A stretch of DNA of 64,000 nt, from IMG/VR virus record IMGVR_UViG_3300024308_000302, positions 1 to 64,000 of that record, one strand, 5' to 3'. Origin of the DNA: a virus. Under the pieces are notes generated by a model. That model made no database searches. It was not told the origin of the DNA and worked only from the letters and a program-made list of their open reading frames with translations. How positions within the stretch are numbered: the first letter of the stretch is position 1; every line of letters begins with the position of its first letter. A program made the position numbers and the translations under genes. Shown in pieces: positions 16,803 through 41,292 of this stretch.

Positions 16803-17513
16803 TCAGTAACGAATTTGAACTTGTTCGGTTTCTTTATTGAATGAGTGCCTAACAACGTGTGGCATATCTTTAGTTTCTTCCTTGAAAATATGACGAAGTT
16901 CTCGCTGCAAGTTTTCAAGTTCTTTGACAAGTCCATGAACTTGATTGTTCAACTTAGAATCATCAACTCGTTTTTTAAGAAGAGTATAATATGCGTCCCG
17001 TTTCTGGCGAAGAGTATCTTTAGTAACATCAATTTGAGACTTCAATTTGTTTACTCGATCAAGATAAGGAGCCTTGAAAGAGCGGACAGCAGAATCATTC
17101 AGTTTCGAGCTTTGAATGATATTGAAGATGCGAACAATGTTTTCGGTGGTAGGGTTACTCAAAAACTCAGTGATAAGGTGCTTAGCAGTAGGAATATCAA
17201 ATTCCAAGGAATAATCGACTTTACCACGAAGCCCAACACCAGCACGTACAGTTGGTGTAGCACGGTCAGTATAGCTGAAAGCCAAAGAAATAGTGTTCAC
17301 GAAACGTTTATGACTGCCAAGCTCATGATAGATACCACCAAACCCCAAAATAGCAACATAATCAAAAGTCACTGGTTTGGAAGTGTAGACATTTCTGCCA
17401 ACGAAAGTGTTACCACCTTGTTTACGATTGAGTTCTACAAAAGTAAACCCTGGCAAGGTTTTGAACTGAGTCATCAAGGGTTTCAGGACTTGCATTGGGG
17501 TTGTGTTTTTCAT
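16803..17513 (-). CDS. hypothetical protein with C-terminal coiled coil, 236 aa
   Basis: Unknown. An N-terminal ~120-residue globular part (VGRNVYTSKPVTFDYVAILGFGG) is followed by long helices with coiled-coil character (residues ~150-215). The SD is weak (AGAGC). No terminator hairpin is obvious at its 3' end. Confidence 0.75.
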   Translation of the reverse strand: MKNTTPMQVLKPLMTQFKTLPGFTFVELNRKQGGNTFVGRNVYTSKPVTFDYVAILGFGGIYHELGSHKRFVNTISLAFSYTDRATPTVRAGVGLRGKVDYSLEFDIPTAKHLITEFLSNPTTENIVRIFNIIQSSKLNDSAVRSFKAPYLDRVNKLKSQIDVTKDTLRQKRDAYYTLLKKRVDDSKLNNQVHGLVKELENLQRELRHIFKEETKDMPHVVRHSFNKETEQVQIRY

Positions 17514-34394: not shown

Positions 34395-34817
34395 TTATTT
34401 TTTGTTATGCAAATCGTAAAGGAAAACCCCAGTAAATTCAATATCCATGCCAATCAAGTCTTTGAATTTATCAGAATCACCAGCAACTGCAGATTTCAGA
34501 AGAGTGATATGAGGAACATGCGGCAAATCTTCAACAATTCCGAAAGATTTGACTGCTTTGTTATAAAAATGACTCCAATCAGTACCTTCAAGTTCAGCAA
34601 CAATCATAACCTGACCGTTTGGATTCCATTCAGAAATCTTAGAAATGCGGCCAGACAAATTGCCATTTTCATTTTTTGGATAATAAGGAAGCTGAATATG
34701 TTTGATAGATCTCGAATGATCAAAAAAAACAGTCAAATGAAGGTTTGATTTAATGTCAAAATTGGAAAGAACAGCACCAGATTCTTTGGTTACTGGAGCA
34801 GCAAAATACATAGCCAT
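34395..34817 (-). CDS. 2H phosphoesterase-like protein, 140 aa
   Basis: Two HxT motifs spaced as in the 2H superfamily: NLHLTVFF (His27-x-Thr29) and VPHITLLK (His103-x-Thr105). Family members open cyclic phosphates or cut 2'-5' and cyclic oligonucleotide bonds. In phages they include anti-CBASS Acb1 enzymes and RNA-repair ligase partners. Which applies here is unknown. It lies between two tRNA units, so RNA repair is also plausible. The SD is weak. Confidence 0.65.
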   Translation of the reverse strand: MAMYFAAPVTKESGAVLSNFDIKSNLHLTVFFDHSRSIKHIQLPYYPKNENGNLSGRISKISEWNPNGQVMIVAELEGTDWSHFYNKAVKSFGIVEDLPHVPHITLLKSAVAGDSDKFKDLIGMDIEFTGVFLYDLHNKK

Positions 34818-35019: not shown

Positions 35020-35103
35020 TGGTGCCCGGTGCCAGACTCGAACTGGCACGGCTTTCGCCGGAAGATTTTAAGTCTTCTGTGTCTACCATTTCACCAACCG
35101 GGC
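35020..35103 (-). tRNA. tRNA-Leu(UAA), copy 2
   Basis: 84 nt with encoded CCA, one base shorter in the D-loop than the other two copies; anticodon TAA. Confidence 0.95.
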
Positions 35104-35108
35104 GTAAA

Positions 35109-35295
35109 TTGAACAGTCCAGAACAGGCTCACATCGAGCAATCTCCGCCCTCCACGGACGGTGTTTTAAGCTTCATCCTTCGACTTTCCCAGTTTATGGC
35201 CACTCAACTGGTTCCATCTAAGACTATGCAACTCTCTAGTCAGCCTGCAGAGCCTTCCTTCAAGTTCCTTTAAACTACCGTTCTGGACTATTCAA
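35109..35295 (-). ncRNA. 187-nt structured RNA with 16-bp closing stem
   Basis: The two ends (35280-35295 and 35109-35124) are complementary over 16 bp with one G.U pair. Inside are a CCAGTT/AACTGG hairpin and a CCGTCC/GGGCGG hairpin with a GGAG-containing loop. An SD-like CGGAG lies eight bases before ATG TGA (35129-35134). It sits between tRNA-Arg and tRNA-Leu in one transcript. No known RNA family is recognised. Confidence 0.6.
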
Positions 35296-35312
35296 TCAAC
35301 AACAAATAAAGC

Positions 35313-35389
35313 TGGCGTCTGTGGCAGGACTCGAACCTGCGACCATCCGCTTAGAAGGCGGATGCTCTATCCAACTGAGCTACACACGG
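35313..35389 (-). tRNA. tRNA-Arg(UCU), copy 1, acceptor end mispaired
   Basis: 77 nt with encoded CCA; D, anticodon (TCT) and T arms match copy 2 at 36621-36697. The first three acceptor pairs are mismatched (5' CCG against 3' GAC), while positions 4-7 pair. It may be non-functional, or it may need repair or editing. Confidence 0.75.
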
Positions 35390-35400
35390 ATAAAGAAAAG

Positions 35401-35477
35401 GGTGCTCTTGGTAAGGATTTGAACCTACGACTTGTGGGTTTCCGCCCACAAACTCTACCAGACTGAGTTACAAGAGC
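35401..35477 (-). tRNA. aberrant tRNA-like gene with 8-nt anticodon loop
   Basis: Acceptor GCTCTTG/CAAGAGC and the D stem are perfect, but the anticodon loop has eight bases (GCGGAAAC, no U33) and the T stem has one bulged T. CCA is not encoded (ACCC). The identity cannot be assigned. It could be a decaying tRNA or an unusual one. Confidence 0.55.
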
Positions 35478-35484
35478 GTGAAGC

Positions 35485-35610
35485 TTATTCTGCGTGACGG
35501 TTGCGGCGTTTATCACGCATTTGACGACTGATTTTGTTATCACTACGTTTGGCGTTATCTTTCGATTTGCCCGAGAATTTTTCCATAGTGTCGCGGTAAG
35601 AACCTTGCAT
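35485..35610 (-). CDS. MQGS/RDKRRNRH basic peptide, copy 2 (41 aa)
   Basis: MQGSYRDTMEKFSGKSK...RQMRDKRRNRHAE. Same ends as the peptides at 20074-20208 and 36707-36835. AAGGAAA precedes the ATG. It is the first gene of the operon that goes on to the aberrant tRNA, tRNA-Arg, the 187-nt RNA, tRNA-Leu and tRNA-CAU. Confidence 0.8.
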   Translation of the reverse strand: MQGSYRDTMEKFSGKSKDNAKRSDNKISRQMRDKRRNRHAE

Positions 35611-35646: not shown

Positions 35647-35675
35647 AGTATATCAACCATTGAACCCGTTAGCAA
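35647..35675 (-). promoter_or_regulatory. strong sigma70 promoter with CATCAAAACGA box
   Basis: TTGCTA-17-TATACT followed by CCCATCAAAACGAAG; drives the tRNA operon 34929-35610. Confidence 0.88.
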
Positions 35676-36529: not shown

Positions 36530-36614
36530 TGGTGCCCGGTGCCAGACTCGAACTGGCACGACTTTCGCCGGAAGATTTTAAGTCTTCTGTGTCTACCGAT
36601 TTCACCAACCGGGC
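36530..36614 (-). tRNA. tRNA-Leu(UAA), copy 3
   Basis: 85 nt with encoded CCA, anticodon TAA, long variable arm (one base change against copies 1 and 2). Confidence 0.95.
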
Positions 36615-36620
36615 ATAATT

Positions 36621-36697
36621 TGGCCCATGCGGCAGGATTCGAACCTGCGACCATCCGCTTAGAAGGCGGATGCTCTATCCAACTGAGCTACGCACGG
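36621..36697 (-). tRNA. tRNA-Arg(UCU), copy 2
   Basis: 77 nt with encoded CCA. Acceptor CCGTGCG/CGCATGG fully paired (one G.U), anticodon TCT. It reads AGA/AGG, which are frequent in the AT-rich genes of this window. Confidence 0.95.
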
Positions 36698-36706
36698 ATG
36701 TTTGAG

Positions 36707-36835
36707 TTAAGCGTCTTGATGACGATTGCGGCGTTTATCACGGAATTGACGGTCTTTTTTTGCAAAATTGCGGGTTTCTTTGTCACGACCTTTAGAAGTG
36801 AATTTTTCGGTCATATCGTTGTGAGAACCTTGCAT
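36707..36835 (-). CDS. MQGS/RDKRRNRH basic peptide, copy 3 (42 aa)
   Basis: MQGSHNDMTEKFTSKG...RQFRDKRRNRHQDA. It heads the operon with tRNA-Arg, tRNA-Leu and two minigenes. AAGGAAA precedes the ATG at 36833-36835. Confidence 0.82.
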   Translation of the reverse strand: MQGSHNDMTEKFTSKGRDKETRNFAKKDRQFRDKRRNRHQDA

Positions 36836-36871
36836 TTCGTATTTCCTTGTATGTTTCGTTTTGATGGGTTC

Positions 36872-36900
36872 ATTATAGAGAAATTGGTACTGCATGTAAA
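36872..36900 (-). promoter_or_regulatory. strong sigma70 promoter with CATCAAAACGA box
   Basis: TTTACA-17-TATAAT followed by CCCATCAAAACGAAA; drives peptide, tRNAs and minigenes. Confidence 0.9.
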
Positions 36901-36972
36901 GCATTATTTTCAAATTTTCTTAAAAAAACACATGATATTTTTCTTGTATTTCACTGATTTTTAAAGAAAAAG

Positions 36973-40689: not shown

Positions 40690-41292
40690 TTAGAGTTTTT
40701 GATTGGTGTCCACATAACCTAAGTAGGCACTAATTTTTTTCTCAACATATTCTTTACTTTGTGTAAAATCATTATGGTGCTCATCACGCTGCATATAGCC
40801 TTTAGGGAATGTCATAGTCACATTCATGCCAAGTGCTTCACCAGCAATACCACCAGCCCAATCAGCACCTGTTTGACCACCTGAGATGAGGTTGGTTATA
40901 GGCCAAAATTCATGGACTTTGGAAATAACAAGATAAACCCACTGGTTCAAAGATGCTTGAGATTCGTTCACAAGTTGCTCTGCATCCAAAGTATTAAATT
41001 TGTTGGGTTGATTATCCTTAGACCATTCACCTGACAAGGAATAGATTCCATTACCAGCCACATTCAAAGTGGAAACATTGTGTTTTTTGCAAGCAGCATA
41101 AAGCATACGAGCAGCCACAAGTGGGTCAGTGCTCAAATGGATAGAAACATAACGTTCACCAGCTTCACGTTTGGTCAAGCGTTCACCGGCTGAAGAAAAG
41201 TCTTCTGCGATAGCGACAGTAAGATCTGCTGTACGAGCATTGTGTACAGTTCGTGGCTTGTACTGTGCAGATTCATGTTCGATAATATGCAT
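40690..41292 (-). CDS. SLOG-domain (putative Mo-carrier-like) protein, 200 aa
   Basis: The C-terminal half has LISGGQTGADWAGGIAGEALG (about 135-155) and TFPKGYMQRDE, the nucleotide-binding signatures of SLOG/DprA-like Rossmann proteins often labelled 'putative molybdenum carrier'. The N-terminal ~125 residues are unrecognised. SLOG proteins bind nucleotide-derived ligands, so a sensing or nucleotide-processing role is inferred. The SD is GAGGGGG. Confidence 0.75.
   Translation of the reverse strand: MHIIEHESAQYKPRTVHNARTADLTVAIAEDFSSAGERLTKREAGERYVSIHLSTDPLVAARMLYAACKKHNVSTLNVAGNGIYSLSGEWSKDNQPNKFNTLDAEQLVNESQASLNQWVYLVISKVHEFWPITNLISGGQTGADWAGGIAGEALGMNVTMTFPKGYMQRDEHHNDFTQSKEYVEKKISAYLGYVDTNQKL

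Follow-up and report, generated by a model that had tools for sequence, protein, structure and literature searches.

The window analysed here comprises bases 1-64000 of a 290,157-base IMG/VR virus record, in which ARAGORN identified 35 tRNA genes, all of them on the minus strand. The candidate RNA lies between two such genes, and the minus strand is therefore the strand on which it has to be judged. In minus-strand order, the unit containing it consists of a promoter-like site, an ORF of 41 amino acids, an aberrant tRNA, tRNA-Arg, the candidate RNA, tRNA-Leu, tRNA-Met and a terminator-like hairpin. These features, together with a paralogous unit, are located in the window as follows.

35647..35675, minus strand: promoter-like site, TTGCTA-17-TATACT with TG before the second hexamer; consensus match only
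35485..35610, minus strand: basic ORF of 41 amino acids at the head of the unit; the record has several paralogues, one of them at 36707-36913
35401..35477, minus strand: aberrant tRNA with a 6-nt anticodon loop; 44.4 bits, not named by ARAGORN
35313..35390, minus strand: tRNA-Arg(UCU), directly 5' of the RNA; ARAGORN 35317-35390, CCA at 35315-35313
35107..35297, minus strand: candidate non-coding RNA with a closing terminal helix, about 187-191 nt; from fold, shuffles, lack of an Rfam family and stops
35020..35103, minus strand: tRNA-Leu(UAA), directly 3' of the RNA; ARAGORN and tRNA model, 56.6 bits
34929..35005, minus strand: tRNA-Met(CAU); ARAGORN and tRNA model, 74.5 bits
34902..34922, minus strand: terminator-like hairpin with a T run, end of the predicted unit; consensus match only
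36530..36697, minus strand: paralogous tRNA-Arg/tRNA-Leu unit with an AATTAT spacer; ARAGORN and alignment

An initial annotation of this DNA had placed the RNA in one transcript with two normal tRNAs, a mispaired tRNA-Arg and an aberrant tRNA. The tRNA-Leu and tRNA-Met genes indeed look normal by the tRNA model, and the two irregular genes are as described: the aberrant tRNA, with its short anticodon loop, went unnamed by ARAGORN, and tRNA-Arg has three acceptor mismatches, at pairs 1-72, 2-71 and 3-70 (read from the sequence). The tRNA model aligns to positions 4-67 of 71 in this tRNA-Arg, leaving its ends unaligned, and a compensated pair change is found at 6-67 (read from the sequences). 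The single transcript holds as a prediction from consensus sites, the consensus scan having found no terminator-like site from the promoter-like one (35675-35647) down to the terminator-like one (34922-34902). The region contains 15 promoter-like sites where 9.7 would be expected, so that this evidence is weak, and 9 terminator-like sites where 2.7 would be expected. A second unnamed tRNA of the record, with the anticodon tttg, is located at L007:19041-19117. Between tRNA genes of the window, at 34395-34817, a protein of 140 amino acids is encoded which weakly matches phrog_755 (RNA ligase, E 2e-4).

Two further units of ORF, tRNA-Arg and tRNA-Leu occur in the record, at 36530-36913 and at about 169.3-169.7 kb. 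In both, the 6 nt AATTAT take the place of the RNA, which is thus absent from two of the three units. The leader of the RNA-bearing unit has an identity of 36-38 of 50 to those of the other two, which share 48 of 50 with each other. This makes the RNA-bearing unit the most divergent one as to its leader, so that the RNA may have been gained here or lost from the other two. The small basic protein, with RDKRRNRH near its end, occurs as four paralogues (window 35485-35610 and 36707-36913; near L003 8954 and L008 5518). Three of them stand at the head of tRNA units; behind the one in L003 a terminator-like hairpin is seen by eye, and no tRNA was found in L003 by ARAGORN.

Outside the window, 44 of the 48 ORFs of at least 300 amino acids are on the minus strand. 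Neither terminase (PF03237, PF17289) nor DNA polymerase B (PF00136) nor reverse transcriptase (PF00078) was found in the 290 kb of the record, which probably represents either part of a larger genome or an element of an unusual kind. Genes for TnpB/Cas12f-like transposases are located at L005:8193-9260 and L013:695-2389, and a cpYpsA/SLOG-family protein encoded at 40690-41292 of the window has 41% identity to one of Vibrio phage ICP1. The tRNA genes include two with a CTA (amber-reading) anticodon, called 'Pyl' by ARAGORN, on the minus strand at L008:15840-15914 and 16849-16923. Reassignment of the TAG codon was considered and dropped: reading TAG as sense raised the coverage by ORFs of at least 100 amino acids only from 0.74 to 0.78, a comparison which is not a formal test.

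Closing helix, interior and composition

On the minus (tRNA) strand a 16-bp helix joins the two ends of 35109-35295, exactly where the initial annotation had drawn it. With the flanks and three G-U pairs included, the helix extends to 20 contiguous bp, 35297-35278 paired to 35126-35107, of which 7 are G-C pairs, with a mean pairing probability of 0.98. The 16-bp core is unbroken on the minus strand only, where it includes one G-U pair; the plus-strand RNA version contains an A-C mismatch. All three non-Watson-Crick pairs among the 20 are G-U on the tRNA strand, a weak indication since there are only three. The helix was retained when 481 nt, including the tRNAs on either side, were folded together. 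The predicted elements of the RNA are the following.

35278..35297, minus strand: 5' arm of the closing helix; 16-bp core 35280-35295, mean pair probability 0.98
35189..35211, minus strand: interior hairpin of 6 pairs; probability 0.91
35145..35161, minus strand: interior hairpin of 6 pairs; probability 1.00
35127..35139, minus strand: interior hairpin of 4 pairs; probability 0.97, its loop containing the AUG of AUG-UGA
35107..35126, minus strand: 3' arm of the closing helix; 16-bp core 35109-35124

None of 300 dinucleotide shuffles of 35106-35316 (211 nt) reached 16 pairs, the maximum being 15 against the 20 observed. The record was also scanned for helices of 16 pairs with at least 6 G-C pairs, at most one G-U pair and a span of 60-260, and the closing helix of 35109-35295 was the sole one found on both strands of the 290,157 bases; the limit of at least 6 G-C pairs was fitted, an earlier scan with at least 7 having found nothing, the target included. 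Three Markov sequences of record length contained no helix of this kind. The whole RNA folds on the minus strand with z scores of -4.36 (1 of 200 shuffles as good) and -5.06 (0 of 500), and on the plus strand with -2.91 (1 of 200) and -2.83 (5 of 500). Inter-tRNA spacers of 60-600 nt were compared as well (n = 26: 11 from this record and 15 from five other phage loci, L017 and L021 contributing none), and in the other 25 the helix closing the ends never exceeded 14 pairs or 3 G-C pairs, compared with 20 and 7 here. The terminal helix is thus real and statistically solid. A composition regression places the 35109-35295 stretch no higher than 5th among the 1360 of the 64-kb window.

The 150-nt interior without the closing helix gave a z score of -0.10, its fold being equalled or bettered by 222 of 500 shuffles, and the evidence for structure is therefore that of the terminal helix alone. 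The GC-rich interior hairpins of the initial annotation are predicted, some with high probability, but they are expected from composition and are no evidence of structure. Likewise, the Shine-Dalgarno-like CGGAG (35147-35143) and the AUGUGA (35134-35129) that it reported are both present on the minus strand, but the frame is a single codon in a hairpin loop, so that it was given no weight and dropped as a coding signal.

The GC content of 35109-35295 is 47.6%, compared with 32% in the record, a value reached by 0.9% of 187-nt stretches in the record and by 2.3% of those in the window; another inter-tRNA spacer of the record has 45% GC. The minus strand of the stretch contains stops in all three frames, and the plus strand has 54 open codons through 35109-35270.

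Searches for families and relatives

No Rfam family was assigned to 35109-35295 at gathering score and no match was found inside it on the minus strand at E values up to 10, which upholds the earlier claim that the RNA matches no known family. Two plus-strand matches inside the stretch, with E values of 7.2 and 9.3, are at chance level. ARAGORN and RF00005 gave no tRNA or tmRNA match there, and the Rfam models of GOLLD and ROOL did not match the candidate RNA. Searches with RF00013 (6S RNA) and RF00010 (RNase P RNA) at E<=10 gave no match; the same searches were positive in 8 and 11 of 14 control genomes, respectively. A comparison by eye with the motifs of group I introns, RNase P RNA and 6S RNA was given no weight.

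Blastn searches with the spacer or RNA gave no convincing homologue among phages (50,697 records), plasmids (72,556) or E. coli (20,395 records). Pattern scans of IMG/VR and 84,980 species genomes, collections from which records very near this one are possibly absent, yielded no convincing relative. The paired-arm pattern gave one match in IMG/VR and one in the species genomes, both judged to be chance: that in L016 lies inside an open frame of 986 codons, the 8 kb of L027 (Chitinibacter), which contain the other, are free of tRNAs, and in both cases the single-sequence covariance model of the candidate RNA, R1, was silent up to E 10. R1 was searched in 10 records and 335 kb of loci; it found only itself in the loci, and itself and a weak match on LR756508 in the records. 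The latter (E 0.22 for the record, 0.01 for 22.5 kb) is at the same place as a blastn match (E 2), which was rejected as it falls in coding sequence, where one ORF ends and another starts, and has no tRNA in its vicinity. No kin of the record was found in viral contigs by protein, leader or protein-derived DNA pattern. The nearest phages, by tRNA similarity only, are those of the PA5oct group, and the tRNA region of PA5oct, the member of the group examined, contains no like spacer. The discrete, end-paired RNA without a family in a tRNA transcript, as initially annotated, fits these findings, with the qualification that the word 'structured' refers to the terminal helix.

In the whole record, Rfam matches above gathering scores were confined to tRNAs and one SRP RNA. 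The latter is of the 4.5S type (RF00169, 58.7 bits, gathering score 40) and is located on the minus strand at 183334-183429 of the record (L008:19334-19429), about 100 nt downstream of a tRNA-Arg. Its GUCAGG...GGAA...AGCAGC core is intact and its stem AT-rich and diverged. Nine other phage records had no SRP RNA match at E<=1, and among the literature titles listed none concerned a phage SRP RNA. The virus thus carries a structured non-tRNA RNA near its tRNAs, which raises the prior for a small RNA a little, but it is not a close parallel, since a terminator-like hairpin (by eye) separates the SRP RNA from the tRNA-Arg.

A candidate small RNA from the tRNA precursor

The strand, the position, the closing helix of 16-20 bp, the interruption of every minus-strand frame by stops and the absence from the two paralogous units are computed results. 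The explanation which accounts for them best, and which is put forward tentatively, at somewhat less than even confidence, is a candidate small non-coding RNA of about 190 nt, transcribed together with the tRNAs of the phage and then freed from the precursor, which would work most like RNAC and RNAD of T4. It is favoured because the closing helix is beyond chance, alone in the record by the fitted criteria and kept when folded with its neighbours, because its departures from Watson-Crick pairing are all G-U on the tRNA strand (weak, being three), and because the other 25 inter-tRNA spacers have no comparable end helix. The high GC content in a record of 32% GC, the location on the same strand as the tRNAs without a terminator-like site between, the precedent of T4 rnaC and rnaD near tRNA-Arg and the presence in the record of another structured non-tRNA RNA about 100 nt from a tRNA-Arg also speak for it. 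It is weakened by the interior, which folds like its shuffles, by the lack of a homologue in the collections searched, by the absence of the RNA from two of the three paralogous units, by a GC content that is not peculiar to this spacer (45% in another) and by the rank of only 5th of 1360 in the composition regression. The mispaired and aberrant neighbours, which could mean that the unit is decaying, weaken it further.

The main rival is an inert insertion with terminal inverted repeats, for example the remnant of a small mobile element, which would lie between tRNA-Arg and tRNA-Leu and be transcribed without function. The confinement of significance to the terminal repeats, which are those expected of a MITE-like element, fits such an insertion, as do the two paralogous units without the RNA, the GC content unlike that of the record and the TnpB-type transposase genes. 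The stretch is nevertheless present as a single copy; its arm core AGTCCAGAAC occurs in the record only at its two arms, no target duplication is seen by eye at its edges when compared with the empty units, and the single paired-arm match in IMG/VR, like the single one in the species genomes, was judged to be chance. Where the repeat is imperfect, the pairs are G-U without exception on the tRNA strand; this also argues weakly against it, there being three of them, and an inert insertion is considered the less likely reading.

Less likely still is that the helix is a mere processing or insulating spacer, separating tRNA-Arg from tRNA-Leu or guiding cleavage, with the interior as degraded filler. 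This agrees with the z score of the interior and with the tRNAs on both flanks, but a spacer of 6 nt suffices in the two paralogous units, and filler might be expected nearer to 32% than to 47.6% GC, although another spacer has 45%.

That the RNA has diverged from one of the known structured RNAs (6S, RNase P RNA, retron msr-msd, GOLLD or ROOL) is very improbable. The record does contain an SRP RNA, and the length and end pairing of the candidate are reminiscent of 6S or retron RNA; against this stand the lack of any Rfam match inside the stretch on the minus strand up to E 10, the failure of RF00013 and RF00010 to match at E<=10 and, for a retron, the lack of a reverse transcriptase (PF00078, E<=0.001) in a record which may be a fragment. 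A plus-strand gene is scarcely credible, since its open frame of 54 codons starts inside the antisense of tRNA-Leu, matches no Pfam family at cut-off (best E 0.16) and no phage sequence better than E 9, and has neighbouring tRNAs which are all on the other strand.

For a small RNA released from the tRNA precursor, a course of events can be outlined. The unbroken terminal helix would act as a processing stalk, a double-stranded substrate of the RNase III type, and tRNA maturation enzymes would cut the neighbouring tRNAs, so that the product might be a closed, exonuclease-resistant species. Once released, the RNA may act in trans during infection; since the record carries its own SRP RNA and many tRNAs, host RNA-binding or translation factors could be guessed as its partners. 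A bolder version, in which a new class of phage RNA is cut out whole by the 20-bp helix and serves, together with the mispaired tRNA-Arg and the aberrant tRNA, as decoy or regulator of host RNA enzymes, such as tRNA-cleaving defence nucleases, instead of decoding, is a long shot.

Comparison with known systems

Stems enclosing precursor rRNAs are substrates of RNase III. In these stalks the RNA that is cut out has its two ends connected by a long helix, as the candidate would have, but the candidate is not ribosomal. Among bacterial tRNA-precursor spacer RNAs, the leuZ 3' external transcribed spacer is a sponge of small RNAs; it is cut from a tRNA precursor and acts in trans, as proposed here, and differs from the candidate in being a short 3' trailer.

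GOLLD and ROOL are phage or prophage RNAs, described as being without known function and often found near tRNA islands; many GOLLD RNAs exceed 800 nt, and the structures of both are elaborate and covarying (PMC12286853). The candidate shares with them its phage origin and its proximity to tRNAs, and differs in having no Rfam match.

The closest comparison is with RNAC (rnaC, species 1) and RNAD (rnaD, species 2) of T4. They are reported to be late RNAs validated by Northern blot (PMC9697503) and are described as being without known function (PMC9697503, PMC3014915, PMC12685909). In the T4 annotation, rnaD (119 nt) is directly 3' of tRNA-Arg and is followed by rnaC (139 nt). Like the candidate, they are thus non-tRNA RNAs following tRNA-Arg in a tRNA region, and of similar size (139 and 119 nt compared with about 190); the candidate likewise has phage tRNA genes on both sides, is encoded on their strand and shares with them one transcript predicted from consensus sites. 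The fold of rnaC (z -4.57) is beyond chance, as is that of the candidate, whereas that of rnaD is not (z -0.83). Neither has sequence similarity to the candidate, 192 and 156 of 200 shuffles scoring as well for rnaC and rnaD, respectively, and R1 had no match in T4. The predicted folds of rnaC and rnaD lack a closing helix of 16-20 bp, unlike the candidate, and rnaC ends in what looks by eye like a tRNA T-arm, which was not seen in the candidate RNA. With its clear processing-type helix, the RNA described here is a candidate whose excision is directly testable. A T4-like RNA of the tRNA region, unrelated to those of T4 and in another phage, would point to a more general use of tRNA operons as carriers of small RNAs in phages.
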